A model generated the notes under the pieces. It was not told the DNA's origin. It saw only the letters and a program-made list of their open reading frames with translations, and ran no database searches. A stretch of DNA of 36,758 nucleotides, taken from IMG/VR virus record IMGVR_UViG_3300023109_000057, positions 1 through 36,758 of that record; one strand, given 5' to 3'. How positions within the stretch are numbered: the first letter of the stretch is position 1; each line of letters starts with the position of its first letter. The position numbers and the translations under genes were made by a program. Below, one piece after another: positions 9,860 to 18,182 of this stretch. Source of the stretch: a virus.

Positions 9860-10237
9860 ATGCAAGAATACACAGTAAAAGTAGAAGACAATGGTGATAA
9901 GTCTTGGTATCAAAATGGTAAGCGCCATCGTGAAGACGGTCCTGCTATTGAATATGCTGATGGTGATAAGTATTGGTATCAAAATGGTAAACGTCACCGT
10001 CTAGACGGTCCTGCTTGTGAATGGGCTAATGCATATAAGTTTTGGTATCAAAATGGTAAACGTCACCGTCTAGACGGTCCTGCTGTTGAATATGCTGATG
10101 GATATAAGGCTTGGTATATTGAAGGTAAAAAACTTACCGAAGAAGAGTTTAATAATCGTAATAAAGTCGAAGTAACTCTCGAAGATATCGCCGAAGCAAT
10201 GAACATCGATGTTGACAAACTTCGTATTAAGGAATAA
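9860..10237 (+). CDS. repeat protein with WYQNGKRHRxDGPA units, copy A
   Basis: A 125-aa protein made of about three and a half repeats of roughly 23 residues with consensus D(G/A)xKxWYQNGKRHRxDGPAxE(Y/W)A, ending in WYIEGKKLTEEEF and a conserved C-terminal helix region (EVTLEDIAEAMNIDVDKLRIKE). The repeat resembles MORN-like/YwqK-type repeats found in phages and bacteria, which form curved beta-hairpin arrays; the biochemical role is unknown. The next gene is a paralogue with the same N- and C-termini and one more repeat. The start is fixed by a GGAACACTGATATAAT motif ending 6 nt before the ATG. Its repeats probably expand and shrink by recombination. Confidence 0.75.
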   Translation: MQEYTVKVEDNGDKSWYQNGKRHREDGPAIEYADGDKYWYQNGKRHRLDGPACEWANAYKFWYQNGKRHRLDGPAVEYADGYKAWYIEGKKLTEEEFNNRNKVEVTLEDIAEAMNIDVDKLRIKE

Positions 10238-10241
10238 TATT

Positions 10242-10691
10242 GTGCAAGAACAAAACGGAATGGTAGATGACAACGGTGATAAGTTTTGGTATCAAAACGG
10301 TAAGCGTCATCGGTTAGATGGACCTGCTATTGAATATGCTAATGGCACTAAGGGTTGGTATCAAAATGATAAGCTTCATCGCGAGGATGGGCACGCCATT
10401 GAGTATGCTAATGGCGCTAAGGGTTGGTATCAAAATGATAAGCTTCACAGGCTAGATGGACCTGCTGTTGAACATGGCGATGGCTTTAAGGCCTGGTATC
10501 AAAATGACAAGCGTCATCGTGAGGATGGACCTGCTTGTGAATATGCTGATGGTGATAGGTATTGGTTTATTGAAGGTAAAGAGCTTACCGAAAAAGAATT
10601 TAACGATAGAAACAACAAAGTCGAAGTTACTCTTGAGGACATTGCTAAAGCTATGAATATCGATGTTGATAAGCTTCGTATTAAGGAATAA
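10242..10691 (+). CDS. repeat protein with WYQN(G/D)KxHRxDGPA units, copy B
   Basis: Tandem paralogue of the preceding gene, 149 aa from a GTG start. That GTG lies 4 bp after the upstream stop and gives VQEQNGMVDDNGDKFWY, aligning with MQEYTVKVEDNGDKSWY of copy A; an in-frame ATG at 10209 inside copy A is less likely. It has about four and a half repeats, some with WYQNDK in place of WYQNGK and one DGHA in place of DGPA, followed by WFIEGKELTEKEF and the same C-terminus, ending in MNIDVDKLRIKE. The near-identical C-terminal segments and divergent middle repeats point to duplication followed by repeat turnover. Function unknown. Confidence 0.75.
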   Translation: MQEQNGMVDDNGDKFWYQNGKRHRLDGPAIEYANGTKGWYQNDKLHREDGHAIEYANGAKGWYQNDKLHRLDGPAVEHGDGFKAWYQNDKRHREDGPACEYADGDRYWFIEGKELTEKEFNDRNNKVEVTLEDIAKAMNIDVDKLRIKE

Positions 10692-10984: not shown

Positions 10985-11725
10985 ATGGACAATGTTAGCG
11001 ATATAAGAAACGAGTTTATTAGGCTCTACAATAACAAAGAATTTGTTATAGATAAAAGTGGTGTAAAAACACTTGAATACATAGGTTCATCCTTCAATGC
11101 AGATGAGTCTGCTATCTTTGGAAAACCGAATAAAGACTACATCAAACGTGAAATTGATTGGTACACTTCCCAATCTTTGGACGTCGATGATATTGAAGGC
11201 AAAACACCGAAAATTTGGCAAGATATTTCATCCCGTTCTGGCCTCATACATTCTAATTATGGTTATCTTATCTACTCAGATGAAAACGAAAACCAATATG
11301 CGAGTTGTTTAAATGCGCTATTGGATAATAAGAATACACGCCGTGCAATTATGATCTATACTCGGCCTCAAATTCAAAGACAGTATGACAGAAATGGTAT
11401 GTCTGATTTCATATGCACTAACAGTGTACAATACGTTATTCGCAACAATAAGCTCCATGCTATCGTCAATATGCGTAGTAATGATGTTATTTTTGGTTAT
11501 CGAAACGATTGGGCATGGCAAAAGCATGTATTATCTAAACTCGTTAAAGAGTATAACGACACAGCACGCCGGCACAACAATTATGTAGACGTCTCTGTTG
11601 GAGATATCACATGGCAGATAGGATCTTTACATGTCTATGAACGACACTTCAAATACATTGAAGATGAAATTTCTAAGCGTATTAGAATGTCACACAATAA
11701 TTCACTTGCTGACAAAATACTATAA
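10985..11725 (+). CDS. 42: dCMP hydroxymethylase gp42
   Basis: Converts dCMP to 5-hydroxymethyl-dCMP with methylene-tetrahydrofolate, the first step in replacing cytosine in phage DNA. It belongs to the thymidylate synthase fold and follows T4 gp42 closely at the same length (246 aa): FVIDKSGVKTLEYIGSSF, GKTPKIWQDI, RRAIMIYTRP, the nucleophile C144 in CTNSVQY (C148 in T4), RSNDVIFGYRNDWAW and GSLHVYERHF. D175 in RND corresponds to T4 D179, which replaces the thymidylate synthase Asn and sets dCMP over dUMP. This is strong evidence that the phage makes hydroxymethylcytosine DNA. The promoter ends 6 nt before the ATG. An exonuclease gene follows after 4 bp. Confidence 0.96.
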   Translation: MDNVSDIRNEFIRLYNNKEFVIDKSGVKTLEYIGSSFNADESAIFGKPNKDYIKREIDWYTSQSLDVDDIEGKTPKIWQDISSRSGLIHSNYGYLIYSDENENQYASCLNALLDNKNTRRAIMIYTRPQIQRQYDRNGMSDFICTNSVQYVIRNNKLHAIVNMRSNDVIFGYRNDWAWQKHVLSKLVKEYNDTARRHNNYVDVSVGDITWQIGSLHVYERHFKYIEDEISKRIRMSHNNSLADKIL

Positions 11726-11729
11726 CATT

Positions 11730-12326
11730 ATGAATGATAATTATAAACACAAACTATGTTTCGTTGATCTTGAAACAACAGGTTTAGACCGAAAGAAAAA
11801 CGACATTTTTCAACTTTCTGCGATTATTACAGATCCTTCTGGTGATAATGTGTTGGATAAAATCACACTGAGTTTTAAACCATACCAACTCAACGATTAT
11901 GAAGAAGCTGCATTTGAGAAAACCGGAGTCACCCTTGAATATTTAAATTCACTTGAACTTGATTCTCTGACAGCAAGGGATATATTTATAGATTTTCTTA
12001 AAAAACATGTAGACCCATTTAATAAAAGCGATAAGCTTCAGTTTATTGCTTATAACGCACCATTTGATTCTGAATTTTTAAGAGAGTGGTGGAATAAGGC
12101 AAACGATCCTTATTTTGGAAGCTTATTTTGGAATCCGCCTATCTGTGTTATGCAAGCTGCAGCGTGGTTTGTACGACGCGTCAGAGGAGCTTTATTTAAT
12201 TTCAAATTGGGAACAATTTGTGAAGCTGCTGAACTAGGGTGGGATGACTCTAAAGCGCATGACGCAGAATACGATATCACAAAGACTCTCGAGCTTTATC
12301 GATATTTGTCTAAAACGATGCACTAA
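11730..12326 (+). CDS. DnaQ-like (DEDDh) 3'-5' exonuclease
   Basis: A stand-alone proofreading-type exonuclease of 198 aa. ExoI is FVDLETTG (D13, E15), ExoII is FIAYNAPFDSEFL (the Asp in PFD), and ExoIII is AHDAEYDITKTLELY (His and Asp), giving the DEDDh set. This matches the DNA polymerase III epsilon and RNase T branch; it does not resemble T4 DexA beyond the fold. The ATG at 11730 lies 4 bp after gene 42, and upstream in-frame starts would lie inside gene 42. Placement between 42 and the modification genes suggests a role in degrading host DNA or trimming phage DNA ends; the substrate is not known. No helicase or polymerase domain is attached. Confidence 0.88.
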   Translation: MNDNYKHKLCFVDLETTGLDRKKNDIFQLSAIITDPSGDNVLDKITLSFKPYQLNDYEEAAFEKTGVTLEYLNSLELDSLTARDIFIDFLKKHVDPFNKSDKLQFIAYNAPFDSEFLREWWNKANDPYFGSLFWNPPICVMQAAAWFVRRVRGALFNFKLGTICEAAELGWDDSKAHDAEYDITKTLELYRYLSKTMH

Positions 12327-12353
12327 ATAGCATTAAGTGTTTAACTAATATTG

Positions 12354-12382
12354 TGTACAAGACTACAAAACTATGGTATAAT
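12354..12382 (+). promoter_or_regulatory. sigma70-like promoter of the modification operon
   Basis: TGTACA at 12354-12359, a 17-bp spacer and an extended -10 TGGTATAAT (12377-12382). The predicted start is base 12389, the A of the ATG of the 42-aa basic gene. Confidence 0.78.
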
Positions 12383-12388
12383 TAACTT

Positions 12389-12517
12389 ATGAAAAACAAC
12401 GCCAAAGACTACAAAACTAAAGTAAAAAAACGTAAGCGAATCCACGCTAAAAGTAAAACATCTCACTTAAAACAAAGTAAACTCTATAAAAAGAAATATA
12501 GAGGACAAGGAAAATAA
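12389..12517 (+). CDS. 42-residue very basic protein
   Basis: A tiny gene encoding MKNNAKDYKTKVKKRKRIHA and ending KKKYRGQGK; 18 of 42 residues are Lys or Arg. The KRKRIHAKSKTSHLKQSKLY core followed by KYRGQG is, from memory, a recurring small protein in T4-like marine phages. Its position directly behind a strong promoter, with the ATG at the predicted transcription start, and its clean stop argue that it is real. A positively charged unstructured protein of this size could bind RNA, DNA or ribosomes; no function is known to me. It precedes the Nmad1-type gene by 12 bp. Confidence 0.7.
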   Translation: MKNNAKDYKTKVKKRKRIHAKSKTSHLKQSKLYKKKYRGQGK

Positions 12518-12529
12518 ACGTAAACAAAT

Positions 12530-12982
12530 ATGGGAAAAACAATATTATCACAAATGTACGATGAAGAATCTTCCGATCAACACGCAAACAGCGCAGACAC
12601 GTTTGCAAATTACGCAGGACTTAATAGCACAGTCTCGACTAAACCCGTAACTCCTGCTGACGTTCTTAAAATGTGCTCAGATCTTCAAATTAAAAAATCA
12701 AACGACTATCAAAACCCTCATTCGATTATACGCCAAGCTGATTATTATCCTCGTGGTGTATCTTCTATTCTCGATATCATCCACGCAAAAACTCTGCGGA
12801 TGCGTTCTGTGATCGAAGCAATTGAAAGTGACGATGCGTATAAAGAAAACTTCGAATCGATTGAAGATTCAGCTATGGATTTAATCAATTACGCTTCTTT
12901 TCTTGTATCATATATGAATGGAGGTATCGATGGTCAAGAAGTCGACCGTGATTTTCTTAATAGAAAGATAAGTATAAAATAG
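12530..12982 (+). CDS. Nmad1-type protein (DUF1599, nucleotide modification associated)
   Basis: A 150-aa protein containing the features of nucleotide modification associated domain 1: KKSNDYQNPHSIIRQADYYP, RGVSSILDIIHAKTLRM and ESIEDSAMDLINYASFLVSY. The family was defined computationally from its association with phage DNA hypermodification genes; its activity is not established as far as I know. Context here agrees, since it lies between dCMP hydroxymethylase and the glucosyltransferase. The first 40 residues (SQMYDEESSDQHANSADTFA) are low-complexity and likely disordered. The next gene starts directly after its stop (TAGATG), so the two are tightly coupled. Confidence 0.8.
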   Translation: MGKTILSQMYDEESSDQHANSADTFANYAGLNSTVSTKPVTPADVLKMCSDLQIKKSNDYQNPHSIIRQADYYPRGVSSILDIIHAKTLRMRSVIEAIESDDAYKENFESIEDSAMDLINYASFLVSYMNGGIDGQEVDRDFLNRKISIK

Positions 12983-14197
12983 ATGAAAAACATATCAATC
13001 ATTTTAGGTAGAGGCATTGAAGGTTGTGGCGTAACGAAATTTACTATCGAACAATGTAAATACTTTGAAAAAAGCTCGGCATATAAATATAAGGTGTTTG
13101 CGTCTAAGGATAAATCTTGGACTCGTAAAGACGCGCATTCGACAAATCATATTCAACAGCTTAAGTTCGCTAATGATGATGATGTTGACGAAATGATTAA
13201 AGAGATTAACGAAAGTGACATCGCAATAATAAATTCTTTACCAGCTTCAAGTTTAAAGGAAAAGCCAATTGAAAATTTTAAAAGAATGCTCGATCAAATC
13301 GATGTGCCAGTTGTTCTCATCCAACACGATCATTCAATGCAATCTATTCGACGTAATGCAGCACTAGACGAAGCGATTAGAAAGGCAGATATTATATTTG
13401 TGCATTCAACCTCGAATGATTTTGCTAAATACGCCCGCGAAAAAGTTGGTGGTGGAGTAACACTTTTTGGTACAGAACCTGGCACGTCAATTATTGCATT
13501 TCAGCCAGGAATGTATTTTGACGATGTTAGAAATAAGTATTGGAAATCTGAATGTCTTAATCCTAAACATCACAAATGGATTGGGCGAACTACATCTTGG
13601 AAAGGCTATCAAGAAATGTTTAAATACCACAATGCGCACCTTGCACCAAGTGGTATGTTAACTACATTTGAAGGAATTGAACGTTCTCCTGCGTATCTTG
13701 GTTTTAGGGAATTATCTGTCTTCAAAGGATTACTCGGAGAAAATATTGACACCTACGACTTTAGCGATGGGTATGGAAGCGACGTACATGTTTTCGGCCC
13801 ATATATTCAAGAAGAAATGCTTGAAAGAATGTCTAACGTTGGATTTGGTTATCAGCTTTCAAGAATGAAAGAACATTTTATTCAGCGGTCAATCGAGTAT
13901 ACACATTGTGAAGTTGTTTGTACTGGCACTATTCCAGTTTTCAATAAAAGGTACGGCGATGCATGTACACATAGGCTATATAATAAAAAACTTACTGCGT
14001 GTGAAAACAGTGGAACCATTTGGCTCGACGAAAACAACCTTGAAGAAAATCTAAATCAGATGCTTGAAATTGATAACGATACGGCTCTCCGTGAAAAAAT
14101 GAGAAATGAAGCTTACAGTTTTTATAAATCTCACCAAGACGCATCTTACACGTTTAATGATATGATGGTTTCAATAGCTGAAAACATAGACGTTTAG
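12983..14197 (+). CDS. agt: DNA alpha-glucosyltransferase (T4 AGT-like)
   Basis: Transfers glucose from UDP-glucose to hydroxymethylcytosine in finished phage DNA in alpha linkage, protecting it against restriction. The match to T4 AGT is end to end at 404 aa (T4: 400): GRGIEGCGVTKFTIEQ at the N-terminus, DIAIINSLPASSLKE, VVLIQHDHSMQSIRRNAALD, IGRTTSWKGYQEMFKYH, FEGIERSPAY, MLERMSNVGFGYQLS, HCEVVCTGTIPVF and SGTIWLDENNLEEN. It is a GT-B fold enzyme; the GFGYQLS and CTGTIPVF parts lie in the nucleotide-sugar domain. Together with gp42 it predicts glucosyl-hydroxymethylcytosine DNA. No beta-glucosyltransferase is seen in this window. A C5-methyltransferase-like gene follows after 20 bp. Confidence 0.94.
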   Translation: MKNISIILGRGIEGCGVTKFTIEQCKYFEKSSAYKYKVFASKDKSWTRKDAHSTNHIQQLKFANDDDVDEMIKEINESDIAIINSLPASSLKEKPIENFKRMLDQIDVPVVLIQHDHSMQSIRRNAALDEAIRKADIIFVHSTSNDFAKYAREKVGGGVTLFGTEPGTSIIAFQPGMYFDDVRNKYWKSECLNPKHHKWIGRTTSWKGYQEMFKYHNAHLAPSGMLTTFEGIERSPAYLGFRELSVFKGLLGENIDTYDFSDGYGSDVHVFGPYIQEEMLERMSNVGFGYQLSRMKEHFIQRSIEYTHCEVVCTGTIPVFNKRYGDACTHRLYNKKLTACENSGTIWLDENNLEENLNQMLEIDNDTALREKMRNEAYSFYKSHQDASYTFNDMMVSIAENIDV

Positions 14198-14217
14198 AAT
14201 CGATAAATAAAAAAAAC

Positions 14218-15426
14218 ATGAATAACAATATTACCCACGCAGCGATTGTACCACTTATTGGTGGACTCCCCTTAGCTATGGAAAGCGTATTCGGCAAAAA
14301 GCCGGAGTATGTTTTATCGTATACGCCATTTGAGGCAAATGATTCTCAATACCTCGCACACCACTCAAACACATTACCGTATTATCAGATAGACAAAATG
14401 ACTCATGAAAATTGGATTCCTAAAAAGTCGATTGATGTTGTTGGTGCTACGTGCCCTTGCGCTGGTCTATCTTCTCTAAGTCCATCAGCATCCACAGATA
14501 ATAAAGCAAATGATTGGATGGTGGAATCAGCCAAGTTTGTGCTAGGCAAAGTTAAGCCAAAGGTGTTTTGGGGAGAAAACGCACCTCGACTTGCTTCTAA
14601 AATGGGAGAACCAATTGTAAAAAAACTACGCCTTATTGCTAAGAAACACGGTTATACGTTATCTCTATATAAGACTAAATCTAAAATGCATGGCCTTAGC
14701 CAAACCCGCGATAGAGCGTTCTATTTCTTTTGGCGCGGAGAAGAAATCCCTTATCACCATTTCTTTTTTAGAAACTATGAAAAGGTTGAAGATACAATCG
14801 CTAATACAGCATTCCGCGAAGATGATTGCATGAATCAATTGACAAATTCCCGTAAACCTTCTGAAAACCCTTTTTATCGATATGTTCTTGAAGAAATTGA
14901 AGGAGGCATTAGTCATGAAGAATTTCAGAAAAAGATTGAAAGAAGCATTAATCCTCTCGACTATTTAGAAAATCACGGCGTTAAATATGGGACTGTTTCT
15001 AAGTGGATGGACAAAAACGGTTATAGTAAAGAAGCTAATAGGTGTTTAGAAATTCACAAAAAGCTTGAGTCTGGAGGAAATATTATGAGAAAAACCACAG
15101 AAATTCCAAAGGATTACATTGGTGCATTCGTTGGGCATATGCCAATGTGGCTTACTCATCCAACTGAAGATCGCTATCTCACCATCCGCGAGTGTTTAAC
15201 GATTATGAAAATGCCTAACGACTTTCAATTACAGGGAGGCAAAAAAAACCTTAACATGATTTGTCAAAACGTTCCAGTGACAACTGCTATGGATATGTCA
15301 CAAATTATTTATGATTGGCTAAATGGAGAATTGGATTCTAAAAAGGCTGAATTTGCTGTTTTTGATAATAGAAATCAAACTTACGAATTTGAAGAAATCC
15401 CACAAACGTTAGAAAAATTCATATAA
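14218..15426 (+). CDS. divergent cytosine-C5 methyltransferase-like protein
   Basis: Member of the C5-methyltransferase fold with altered motifs. A motif I-like IGGLPLAME is near the N-terminus. Motif IV is CPCAGLSSLSPS with the catalytic Cys kept (P80-C81) but Gln of the usual PCQ replaced by Ala. Motif VI is GENAPRL (E120, N121) in place of ENV, and motif VIII is QTRDR (162-166). Motif IX-X regions are RYLTIRECLTIMKMPNDFQL and the C-terminal NVPVTTAM. The region between VIII and IX (about 200-290), the usual target-recognition part, is unlike any I know. In DNA whose cytosines are already hydroxymethylated, plain C5 methylation makes little sense, so the substrate is an open question. It sits directly behind the glucosyltransferase. 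Confidence 0.8.
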   Translation: MNNNITHAAIVPLIGGLPLAMESVFGKKPEYVLSYTPFEANDSQYLAHHSNTLPYYQIDKMTHENWIPKKSIDVVGATCPCAGLSSLSPSASTDNKANDWMVESAKFVLGKVKPKVFWGENAPRLASKMGEPIVKKLRLIAKKHGYTLSLYKTKSKMHGLSQTRDRAFYFFWRGEEIPYHHFFFRNYEKVEDTIANTAFREDDCMNQLTNSRKPSENPFYRYVLEEIEGGISHEEFQKKIERSINPLDYLENHGVKYGTVSKWMDKNGYSKEANRCLEIHKKLESGGNIMRKTTEIPKDYIGAFVGHMPMWLTHPTEDRYLTIRECLTIMKMPNDFQLQGGKKNLNMICQNVPVTTAMDMSQIIYDWLNGELDSKKAEFAVFDNRNQTYEFEEIPQTLEKFI

Positions 15427-15439
15427 GGTAATTATGTTA

Positions 15440-15468
15440 TGTACAAATAGTAAAATTTATTATATAAT
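15440..15468 (+). promoter_or_regulatory. sigma70-like promoter of uvsX
   Basis: TGTACA at 15440-15445, a 17-bp spacer and TATAAT at 15463-15468. The predicted start is about 15475, leaving an 18-nt leader (AGAAAGTAAAGAAACAAT) with purine-rich Shine-Dalgarno-like sequence before the ATG at 15493. Confidence 0.78.
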
Positions 15469-15492
15469 AGAAGTAGAAAGTAAAGAAACAAT

Positions 15493-16554
15493 ATGTCATT
15501 ATTAGAAAAACTAAAAAAATCGTCACGATCTAAAGAAGTAGCAATTCTTTCAGAATCAAAACTTTTCTCTGAAAAGGAACTCACACAAACACCAGTGCCA
15601 ATGATCAACGTAGCGTTATCAGGCACAATTGATGGAGGATTAGCGTCTGGCCTAACAGTTTTGGCTGGCCCGTCAAAGCACTTTAAAACATCCTTTGCGT
15701 TGTTAATGGCTGCGTCCTATCTTAAAGAACATAAAGATTCTGTTTTACTCTTTTATGATTCAGAATTTGGTTCTCCTCAAGCGTATTTCGAATCTTTTGG
15801 AATTGATACTAATCGGGTATTGCATACGCCAGTTACAAATATTGAAGAATTAAAATTTGATCTTGTACATCAGCTAAATGAAATTTCTAGGAAAGACAAG
15901 GTGATTGTTGTTATTGATTCTGTAGGAAATATCGCATCAAAGAAAGAAGTAGAGGACGCAGAAAATATGAAATCAGTTGCAGATATGACAAGAGCTAAGG
16001 CACTTAAAGGTCTATTTCGTATGATTACACCTATGCTAACACTGAATGATATCCCATTGCTTGCTATTAATCACACTTATATGGAGCAAGGATTATTTCC
16101 AAAGGCAGTTGTAAGCGGCGGAACTGGTGTAATGTATTCTGCTGATAACGTTTGGATTATTGGACGTAGACAAGATAAAGATGGTAGTGAAGTAAAAGGA
16201 TATCACTTTGTAGTTAACGTCGAAAAATCACGATTCGTAAAAGAAAAATCAAAAATTCCTATCTCAGTTTCTTGGGAAGGAGGTATTCAAAAATGGTCTG
16301 GTTTATTAGATGTTGCTCTAATAGGCGGATATGTTATTAAACCTAAAAATGGTTGGTATCAAGCCAGAAACCCTAACACAAACGAAGAGCTTTCTACAAA
16401 TGTTAGAGCTAAACAAACCCTTAAAAAGGAATTCTGGACGCCAGTGTTTGAAAATACAGATTTTGCGGCGTATATTGAATCTCGCTTTAAGATCGGAAAT
16501 GTTGAAATGGTAATAGAAGAAGAAGAAGGAGAAGAAGACAATGGCGGCGAATAA
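15493..16554 (+). CDS. uvsX: UvsX RecA-like recombinase
   Basis: Phage strand-exchange protein needed for recombination-dependent replication and repair; it forms filaments on single-stranded DNA. RecA core motifs are visible: Walker A GPSKHFKTS (59-67), then YDSEFGSP, Walker B VIVVIDSVGNI, AINHTYMEQG in the L2 region and SGGTGVMYSADNVWIIGRR. The C-terminus is strongly acidic (VIEEEEGEEDNGG), as in T4 UvsX, where the tail modulates DNA binding. It has 353 aa against 391 in T4. It is first in an operon with a small gene and helicase 41, each overlapping the next, matching the T4 order uvsX-40-41 except that the small gene does not look like T4 gp40. Confidence 0.95.
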   Translation: MSLLEKLKKSSRSKEVAILSESKLFSEKELTQTPVPMINVALSGTIDGGLASGLTVLAGPSKHFKTSFALLMAASYLKEHKDSVLLFYDSEFGSPQAYFESFGIDTNRVLHTPVTNIEELKFDLVHQLNEISRKDKVIVVIDSVGNIASKKEVEDAENMKSVADMTRAKALKGLFRMITPMLTLNDIPLLAINHTYMEQGLFPKAVVSGGTGVMYSADNVWIIGRRQDKDGSEVKGYHFVVNVEKSRFVKEKSKIPISVSWEGGIQKWSGLLDVALIGGYVIKPKNGWYQARNPNTNEELSTNVRAKQTLKKEFWTPVFENTDFAAYIESRFKIGNVEMVIEEEEGEEDNGGE

Positions 16555-16849
16555 AATTGATATAGACAAATATGTACAATTTGTTGAGAAGGGTGATAGC
16601 GAACTTTATGCATTGAAAATCATAAAAGGTACTTACACCGATGTAATATACACATATGGGAAAGTAGAGATAAAAGGTTCAGTTGATCAGCCAGTTTTAA
16701 AATTTGATTTTATTATCAACGAACCATCGAAGGGCAAAAGAAAAAAGAAGTTAGAAAAGTCCAAAGCATTTAAAACACTTATAGGTGATATTCTTGTCAA
16801 CCTTATTGAAGAAAAAATTGATGACAAACCTGCAACAACTGATAATTAA
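16541..16849 (+). CDS. conserved small protein between uvsX and 41
   Basis: A 102-aa protein overlapping the uvsX end by 14 bp and the gene 41 start by 29 bp, so it is translated within the same operon. It contains SELYALKIIKGTYTDVIYTYGKVEI and a beta-rich LKFDFIINEP, then a lysine cluster (KGKRKKKLEKSK) and IGDILVNLIEE. The DVIYTYGKV plus IGDIL layout is, from memory, shared by small genes next to helicase 41 in marine T4-like phages. I know of no assigned function; association with recombination or helicase loading is suggested only by position. Confidence 0.65.
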   Translation: MAANKIDIDKYVQFVEKGDSELYALKIIKGTYTDVIYTYGKVEIKGSVDQPVLKFDFIINEPSKGKRKKKLEKSKAFKTLIGDILVNLIEEKIDDKPATTDN

Positions 16850-18182
16850 AACAATAACGGCCGATGAAATATATTGTCGAAAAGCACTACCTCATATTAA
16901 AGCTGAATATTTTGAAAACGAATATAAGCCCGTTTATGAGCTTATCTTAAGTTTCTTATCAAAATTTAATAAATTGCCAACATCCTCTGCCCTAAGTGTG
17001 GAGTTTCAAAAGAGTGATTTTATAAATAGATCTAATAGTAATGATATACACAATTTAATACTTGATCTGGAAAATAATGAGAAAGTTGACAGAGAATGGC
17101 TACTGAACTCTACCGAGGAATGGTGCAAAAATAGGGCAGTCTATCTTGCAATCATTAAATCAATCGGCATCATCGATGGAAAGGAAAAAGAACTAACTGA
17201 TGGTGCTATCCCCGGAATCCTATCCAAGGCGCTACAAGTGTCTTTTGATACGAATGTTGGTCACGATTATTTTGAAAACGCAGATAACAGATACGAATTC
17301 TATCATACGCAAGAAGATAAAATCCCCTTCGACATATCGCTACTTAACACCATTACAAAAGGAGGTGTTTCGAATAAAACTCTCAATATTATTCTGGCGG
17401 GCACTGGTGTGGGAAAAAGTTTGGCGATGTGCCACTTTGCTTCTGCCAATATCTCCGCTGGACGCAATGTTTTATACATTACTCTTGAAATGGCAGAAGA
17501 AAGGATTGCTGAGCGAATCGATGCCAATTTACTTGACGTCCCGATTGATCAACTTGAGACGTTGCCTAAACAACTTTTTAATTCCAAAGTTGATCAGATC
17601 AAAGAGAAGTCTCGAGGAAAGCTTATCGTTAAGGAATATCCAACAGCAACAGCACATGTAGGTCACTTCCGCGCCCTTTTAGATGAACTAAAACTTAAAA
17701 AGGATTTTAAACCCGATGTGATATTTGTTGACTATCTTAACATTATGGCATCAGCGCGTATCAAAGGTCTAGGTGGTTCGGTGAACACCTATTCGTTAAT
17801 TAAGGCGATTGCTGAAGAGCTACGAGGTCTTGCTGTAGAAACTAATGTTCCTGTTTGGTCTGCAACACAGGTAACGAGAACAGGTTTTGGCAATACTGAT
17901 GTTGAGTTAACTGATACTTCAGAATCATTTGGTTTGCCTGCAACTGCTGACTTAATGTTAGCACTTATTTCGACAGAACAGCTTGAAGAAATGAATCAGC
18001 TCATGGTTAAACAATTGAAAAACCGATATAACGATCCTACACAAAATAAAAGATTTGTTGTTGGAATTGATAGGTCAAAAATGCGACTATACGATGTAGA
18101 GGATTCTGCTCAGACACTTTCAAGTGATGAAATTACTCATACTCCAGTTTCCAATAAAGATTTTTCAGCCTTTAAAATATAA
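16821..18182 (+). CDS. 41: replicative DNA helicase gp41 (DnaB-like)
   Basis: Hexameric 5'-3' helicase that unwinds ahead of the polymerase and works with the primase. Clear alignment to T4 gp41 throughout: the N-terminal ALPHIKAEYFENEY, GAIPGILSKALQVSFDTNVGHD, FDISLLNTITKGG, Walker A AGTGVGKS (193-200), LEMAEERIAERIDANLLDV, VIFVDYLNIMASAR (Walker B region), IAEELRGLAVE and ESFGLPATADLMLA. The ATG at 16821 is preferred to 16785 because it starts just before the conserved region and fits T4 in length (453 against 475 aa). It ends in TAATG shared with the next gene. The primase partner is not a T4 gp61 in this window; the AEP-like protein at 8028 is a candidate. Confidence 0.95.
   Translation: MTNLQQLIIKTITADEIYCRKALPHIKAEYFENEYKPVYELILSFLSKFNKLPTSSALSVEFQKSDFINRSNSNDIHNLILDLENNEKVDREWLLNSTEEWCKNRAVYLAIIKSIGIIDGKEKELTDGAIPGILSKALQVSFDTNVGHDYFENADNRYEFYHTQEDKIPFDISLLNTITKGGVSNKTLNIILAGTGVGKSLAMCHFASANISAGRNVLYITLEMAEERIAERIDANLLDVPIDQLETLPKQLFNSKVDQIKEKSRGKLIVKEYPTATAHVGHFRALLDELKLKKDFKPDVIFVDYLNIMASARIKGLGGSVNTYSLIKAIAEELRGLAVETNVPVWSATQVTRTGFGNTDVELTDTSESFGLPATADLMLALISTEQLEEMNQLMVKQLKNRYNDPTQNKRFVVGIDRSKMRLYDVEDSAQTLSSDEITHTPVSNKDFSAFKI

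Follow-up and report, generated by a model that had tools for sequence, protein, structure and literature searches.

Results

Gene content of the locus

The stretch analysed, referred to below as the window, comes from a marine T4-like virus and is a fragment of 36,758 nucleotides (36.8 kb), in which the genes for a family B DNA polymerase, MazG and a primase are followed, in this order, by gp42, an exonuclease, a DUF1599 protein, a DNA alpha-glucosyltransferase (AGT), a C5-methyltransferase-like (C5-MTase-like) protein, UvsX (15493-16554) and a DnaB-like helicase. The product of the gp42-type gene (10985..11725, + strand) matched T4 gp42 (1b49) with an E value of 3e-78 in phmmer, and alignment to the T4 dCMP hydroxymethylase placed its D175 and its catalytic C144 at T4 D179 and C148, which puts it among the T4 gp42-type dCMP 5-hydroxymethylases. 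An aspartate occupied the D175 position in 63 of the 65 gp42 homologues scored, the other two giving no match to the pattern. The AGT of the T4 type (12983..14197, + strand) matched PF11440 (E=1e-85) over the full length of the profile, positions 1-355, and its residues 4-395 aligned to T4 AGT 1y6f with an E value of 1e-95.

Two smaller genes lie between these, both on the + strand: one for a DnaQ-type 3'-5' exonuclease (11730..12326; PF00929, E=3e-8; phrog_192, E=9e-29) and one for a MazG-like protein with a DUF1599 / nucleotide modification associated domain 1 (12530..12982; PF07659, E=1e-4, under the Pfam cut-off), a conserved member of the island that was found in most sister contigs. No RNA features were found.

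The initial annotation had read a dCMP-specific gp42 (D175), an end-to-end alpha-glucosyltransferase and thus a pathway to glucosyl-hydroxymethylcytosine (glucosyl-hmC) from this stretch, and the alignments agree on each count. Since a gp42 with its key residues and an AGT matched from end to end both correspond to T4, a glucosyl-hmC genome is well predicted for the window phage; complete replacement of cytosine is an assumption. The likeness to T4 covers both enzymes, whereas no T4 record was present among the relatives of the C5-MTase-like gene, and T4's own methylase, Dam, modifies adenine.

Fold and catalytic residues of the C5-MTase-like protein

The third gene of interest (14218..15426, + strand) encodes 402 amino acids and matched PF00145 (E=9e-20) with just 71.7 bits, starting past motifs I-II, while the carboxymethyltransferase CmoX of phage S-B43 (8yf3) reached 181 bits with the same model. 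The AlphaFold2 model, for which 38 relatives were used (pLDDT 84.8, pTM 0.84, loop 82-95 disordered), matched M.HhaI, M.HaeIII, DNMT1, CmoX and 3g7u over residues 1-371, with VIA Z scores of 21-22, and CmoX 8yf3 was the top Foldseek match. As modelled, the protein has the full C5-MTase fold.

Residues C81, E120, N121, Q162, R164 and R166 were invariant in 103 of 103 homologues, the last three lying in motif VIII, QTRDR (14701..14715, + strand), and the catalytic Cys81, Glu120, Arg164 and Arg166 were still kept at 30-35% identity. This invariance and a dN/dS of about 0.05-0.13 argue for a working enzyme or, at the least, for purifying selection. Judged from these alignments, the gene belongs to a divergent, widespread and distinct subfamily with the C5-MTase fold. 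The protein shares with M.HhaI and M.HaeIII the fold, the Cys/Glu/QxRxR catalytic residues and motif IX, and differs from them at FxGxG, PCQ, ENV and GNxV and by a 5-residue insert in motif II. The C81 nucleophile, PCA at 80-82 and ENA at 120-122 had been noticed earlier and were confirmed; the notion of an extra, altered C5-MTase also held, and the alteration turned out to extend to motif I, the motif II insert and motif X.

The cofactor site and the pocket facing position 5

Motifs were aligned to an M.HhaI sequence checked against the PDB. In motif I, VPLIGG (residues 11-16; 14248..14265, + strand) replaces FxGxG, with [VI]PL[IV]GG in 103/103 homologues; FxGxG itself was present in 0/103 subfamily members versus 75/80 HhaI-like viral controls, a set picked by similarity to M.HhaI, which inflates its motif frequencies. 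The tip of beta2 (residues 34-37) carries no conserved acid. Past the motif II insert there is a conserved pair, N41-D42 (14338..14343, + strand; N in 103/103, D in 101 and E in 2 of 103), whose acid sits in a helix of the AlphaFold2 model, and D59 was kept in 93 of the 103 homologues. The acid at the beta2 tip, which binds ribose, is conserved in known DNA methyltransferases, and its replacements in M.HaeIII abolished activity or cut it up to 450-fold (PMC4777477). D/E42, with N41, is a possible displaced ribose-binding acid, and the conservation of N41, D42 and D59 suggests that a nucleoside cofactor may still bind. We withdrew the simpler view that the SAM site had been lost, in light of D/E at residue 42 in 103/103 and D59 in 93/103. 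On these alignments the cofactor site is remodelled.

Both M.HhaI positions that lie where the group being transferred comes up against the target base, Q82 and N304, were changed. Motif IV reads CPCAGLSS (14452..14475, + strand; CPCAGLSSL in 103/103), with the nucleophile C81 followed by A82 in place of Q82. Motif X reads CQNVP (15262..15276, + strand; GNxV elsewhere), with Q350 in place of M.HhaI N304 and CmoX R350; this Gln was found in 103/103 and also in Pseudoalteromonas phage XG4, cyanophage S-TIM5 and Bacillus phage G. Motif VI, ENAP (residues 120-123; 14575..14586, + strand), replaces ENV and was invariant in the subfamily and in the same three phages. M.HhaI accepts bulky donors once it carries Q82A/N304A, and engineered C5-MTases have been widened at Q82 and N304 (PMC10666283). 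CmoX, a natural carboxymethyltransferase, has at the N304 position an Arg by which the carboxylate of the donor is held (PMC12783734).

Comparison with CmoX

These changes raise the prospect of a transferase like CmoX, which would take a group other than methyl from a SAM derivative and place it on cytosine C5, creating a second handle beside hmC. Both proteins have the C5-MTase fold in a phage, both are altered at the HhaI Q82 and N304 positions, CmoX was the best structural match, and CmoX itself feeds hypermodification, a trait shared with the island setting of the window gene. The two differ in that CmoX has SPPC, Arg350 and a CmoA partner, whereas the window protein has CPCA, Gln, and hydroxymethylase and glycosylation neighbours, and falls in a separate clade, CmoX being placed outside that of the subfamily. 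CmoA was absent from the complete genomes of XG4 and S-TIM5 and from 10 partial IMG/VR records, in a search whose S-B43 control was positive and which left out the window, a fragment. Among the annotated neighbours of the gene, no CmoY-type amide ligase was noted. Such a transferase is improbable here, and identity with CmoX was rejected, with SPPC missing (CPCA runs through the whole marine family), Gln standing for Arg350, and no CmoA.

A CmoX-like protein of Methylophilales phage Melnitz (L210, 4010-5227) keeps SPPC and has Leu for Arg350 (RIGLMVAP); judging by this substitution, it may be a C5-transferase that works with a further kind of donor group.

Distribution of the subfamily

In IMG/VR, at least 583 stretches have a gene for a relative of the C5-MTase-like protein. 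In subfamily contigs with an upstream stretch of 8 kb or more a gp42-type gene was present in 31/31, and in 36/37 at 6 kb, and UvsX was the next gene downstream in 69/71. Among the 80 HhaI-like viral control loci, a gp42-like sequence was found in 1/80 and AGT in 0/80. The subfamily contigs are related, so that the gp42 and UvsX counts are not independent, and the recurrence of the association in distant phages is the stronger point. The sole exception at 6 kb, L084 (7780-9730), had no detected gp42 and no adjoining UvsX, and a glycosyltransferase-like ORF came after its subfamily gene.

D-type hydroxymethylases were found in all four lineages examined, namely the marine far-T4 group, XG4, S-TIM5 and Bacillus phage G. 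In XG4 the subfamily gene comes after gp42, a nucleotidyltransferase-kinase gene and two glycosyltransferase-like genes, in that order, and S-TIM5 has a D-type ThyA homologue beside ThyX, together with AGT and a subfamily gene. In phage G, two AGT genes lie no more than 11 kb from gp301 and a D-type homologue of thymidylate synthase lies at a distance of 13 kb; a second, stronger thymidylate synthase match is at 72 kb. In the tree, gp301 grouped with the subfamily at 99/98, a placement that carries a long-branch warning. It shares CPCSGLS, ENAP and the Gln at the N304 position, as well as a place close to the two AGT genes and the D-type thymidylate synthase homologue. It differs in that its motif I is Gly-rich and has Phe, its motif II has a Glu, and the identity is only about 25-27%. 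The clustering of gp301, this homologue and the two AGT-type genes at 219-234 kb of phage G (L208, L214, L215, L217) predicts, from gene content, that the DNA of this phage is of the glucosylated hmC type.

Within the marine group the sugar genes varied (AGT, T4-type BGT, TAGT, UDP-galactopyranose mutase, or inositol-phosphate synthase with an hmdU-kinase-like gene) while the subfamily gene was constant. With regard to TET/JBP dioxygenases, the one match noted was a weak 2OG-FeII_Oxy_5 match, in the L027 island. Phage islands that combine TET, a C5-MTase and glycosyltransferases exist, and the islands described here resemble them in having a C5-MTase beside glycosyltransferases, TAGT included in some relatives; unlike TET islands, they would have no need of a 5mC precursor, because gp42 supplies hmC at the nucleotide level.

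Several islands stood apart by their gene content. In L068 (6161-8919) a myo-inositol-1-phosphate synthase gene lies by the gp42-type gene, together with a gene for a 5-hmdU DNA kinase helical domain protein (PF18723), and L084 (5056-6514) has an island of the same kind, with an ORF similar to that protein; these genes possibly specify an inositol-phosphate type of base modification. In L109 (7133-10013) a UDP-galactopyranose mutase, an epimerase-like gene and a glycosyltransferase-like gene of unknown type lie between the hydroxymethylase and the C5-MTase-like gene, which suggests a galactofuranose-like decoration of the DNA.

The search for cellular homologues found eight MAG contigs, five of them close (48-60%) and the others remote; we tentatively read the five close ones as virus-like contigs binned in MAGs. 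No paper on this subfamily was found in the literature searched, which was thin in subscription journals, so that an earlier notice is possible. The subfamily is frequent in marine viromes and, judging by that literature, no one has studied it.

Covariation of the target-recognition domain with the glucosyltransferases

The predicted target-recognition domain (TRD; residues ~179-300; 14752..15117, + strand) showed a mean subfamily identity of 57%, versus 75% for the catalytic core. The avoidance of 4-mer palindromes gave no usable signal for a recognition site, CTAG and CATG being mildly low.

Contig L008 is about 99% identical in DNA to positions 10985-18179 of the window apart from two changes. 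A 1.09-kb beta-glucosyltransferase (BGT) gene is inserted ahead of AGT, and a divergent allele takes the place of the inner part of the C5-MTase-like gene (window positions about 14320-15380, + strand), with 57-87% identity in the nucleotide profile; AGT, between the two changes, is unchanged. The TRD of L008 was 92% identical to that of L034, another contig with BGT, whereas their N-terminal parts were just 71% identical. Among the 36 contigs that cover this region, the L008 type of TRD occurred with BGT in 3/3 and the other types in 0/33, with an exact chance of 1.4e-4 if the contigs are independent; the grouping (type B) had been noticed before the count, which was therefore not blind.

TRD distance also tracked AGT distance over 34 loci once N-terminal and UvsX distance had been removed (partial r 0.46, permutation p 0.0005). 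The correlation with AGT distance was higher for the TRD (r 0.55) than for the N-terminus (r 0.34), although the N-terminus is nearer to AGT on the DNA. This pattern is not expected from plain linkage; co-adaptation predicts it, and a DNA-reading domain would need to co-adapt to the sugar pattern if its target DNA is glucosylated. The C5-MTase-like gene thus appears, from these comparisons, to change in step with the glucosyltransferases. For L008 itself, with three BGT contigs found, chance mosaic recombination with a donor that had both BGT and this allele is a possible explanation.

Across the loci compared, we have shown that the subfamily travels with predicted phage hydroxymethyl-pyrimidine hypermodification islands and co-varies with their glucosyltransferases.

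Covariation of this kind would also be expected of a catalytically idle reader that binds and flips hmC or glucosyl-hmC sites and steers the glucosyltransferases or marks the DNA, and the remodelled cofactor loop would suit such a protein. The four catalytic residues (Cys81, Glu120, Arg164 and Arg166), invariant in 103 homologues and kept even at 30-35% identity, speak against idleness, and we regard a pure reader as very unlikely.

Ordinary methylation or action on modified DNA

A divergent but ordinary SAM-dependent 5mC MTase would have as its substrate host DNA or the cytosines that hydroxymethylation misses, and its role would be protection or the takeover of the host; the initial annotation had allowed for such substrates with its option of unmodified cytosines or host DNA. 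The C5-MTase fold with all its catalytic residues is retained, D42 and D59 could bind SAM, and gp301 of phage G combines a Gly-rich motif I and a motif II Glu with PCS, ENAP and Q; 5mC on residual unmodified cytosine would also be compatible with the C5-MTase fold. On the other side, FxGxG and the motif X Asn are gone in 103/103, and replacement of the beta2 acid crippled M.HaeIII (PMC4777477), an acid that here may be displaced rather than lost. Ordinary methylation also leaves unexplained both the linkage to hydroxymethylases in four lineages and the co-change with glucosyltransferases. This co-inheritance and co-change make that option less likely than it had seemed, and we consider an ordinary MTase rather unlikely.

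The same island linkage and TRD/BGT co-change favour the hmC or glucosyl-hmC DNA of the phage itself as the substrate. We tentatively propose, at a little short of even confidence, that the window protein acts on this DNA through a rebuilt pocket and exchanges or derivatises the position-5 group at chosen sites. The target base would be flipped out, C81 would add at C6, and Glu120 and the arginines of QxRDR would hold the base. The wall facing position 5 (A82 and Q350, with ENA behind) appears rebuilt in a way that would fit a 5-hydroxymethyl group or a non-methyl donor group; since the changes fall on this very wall in phages whose position 5 is predicted to carry CH2OH, chemistry of the hmC type is a reasonable prediction. 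In its most likely net form, the reaction would replace the position-5 substituent at defined sites or derivatise it further, for instance through loss of CH2OH and a subsequent transfer from a SAM-like donor, and such sites would be unable to carry sugar or would bear a different mark.

The known reactions of C5-MTases with hmC are slow side reactions in vitro, which counts against hmC editing. C5-MTases are reported to release the CH2OH of hmC as formaldehyde (PMC11347137), to add formaldehyde to C and, in an engineered form, to couple thiols to hmC (PMC7176277). A bolder version of the proposal, in which a descendant of C5-MTases has given up ordinary cytosine methylation to become an editing enzyme for DNA hmC, or its glucoside, that patterns phage glycosylation, is possible but doubtful.

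Should hmC DNA prove to be its substrate, the protein would parallel in nature the removal or replacement of the hydroxymethyl group achieved with C5-MTases in the laboratory, phages would pattern their sugar-coated DNA rather than coat it uniformly, and the enzyme could become a tool for 5hmC. The question can be answered with the isolated phages XG4, S-TIM5 and G.

Repeat array upstream of gp42

Two adjoining ORFs at 9860-10691 of the window are built of repeated WYQNGKRHR(L/E)DGPAxEYADG units. Comparison of these ORFs with L008 gave many shifted aligned pieces of lower identity, as in a fast-changing array.
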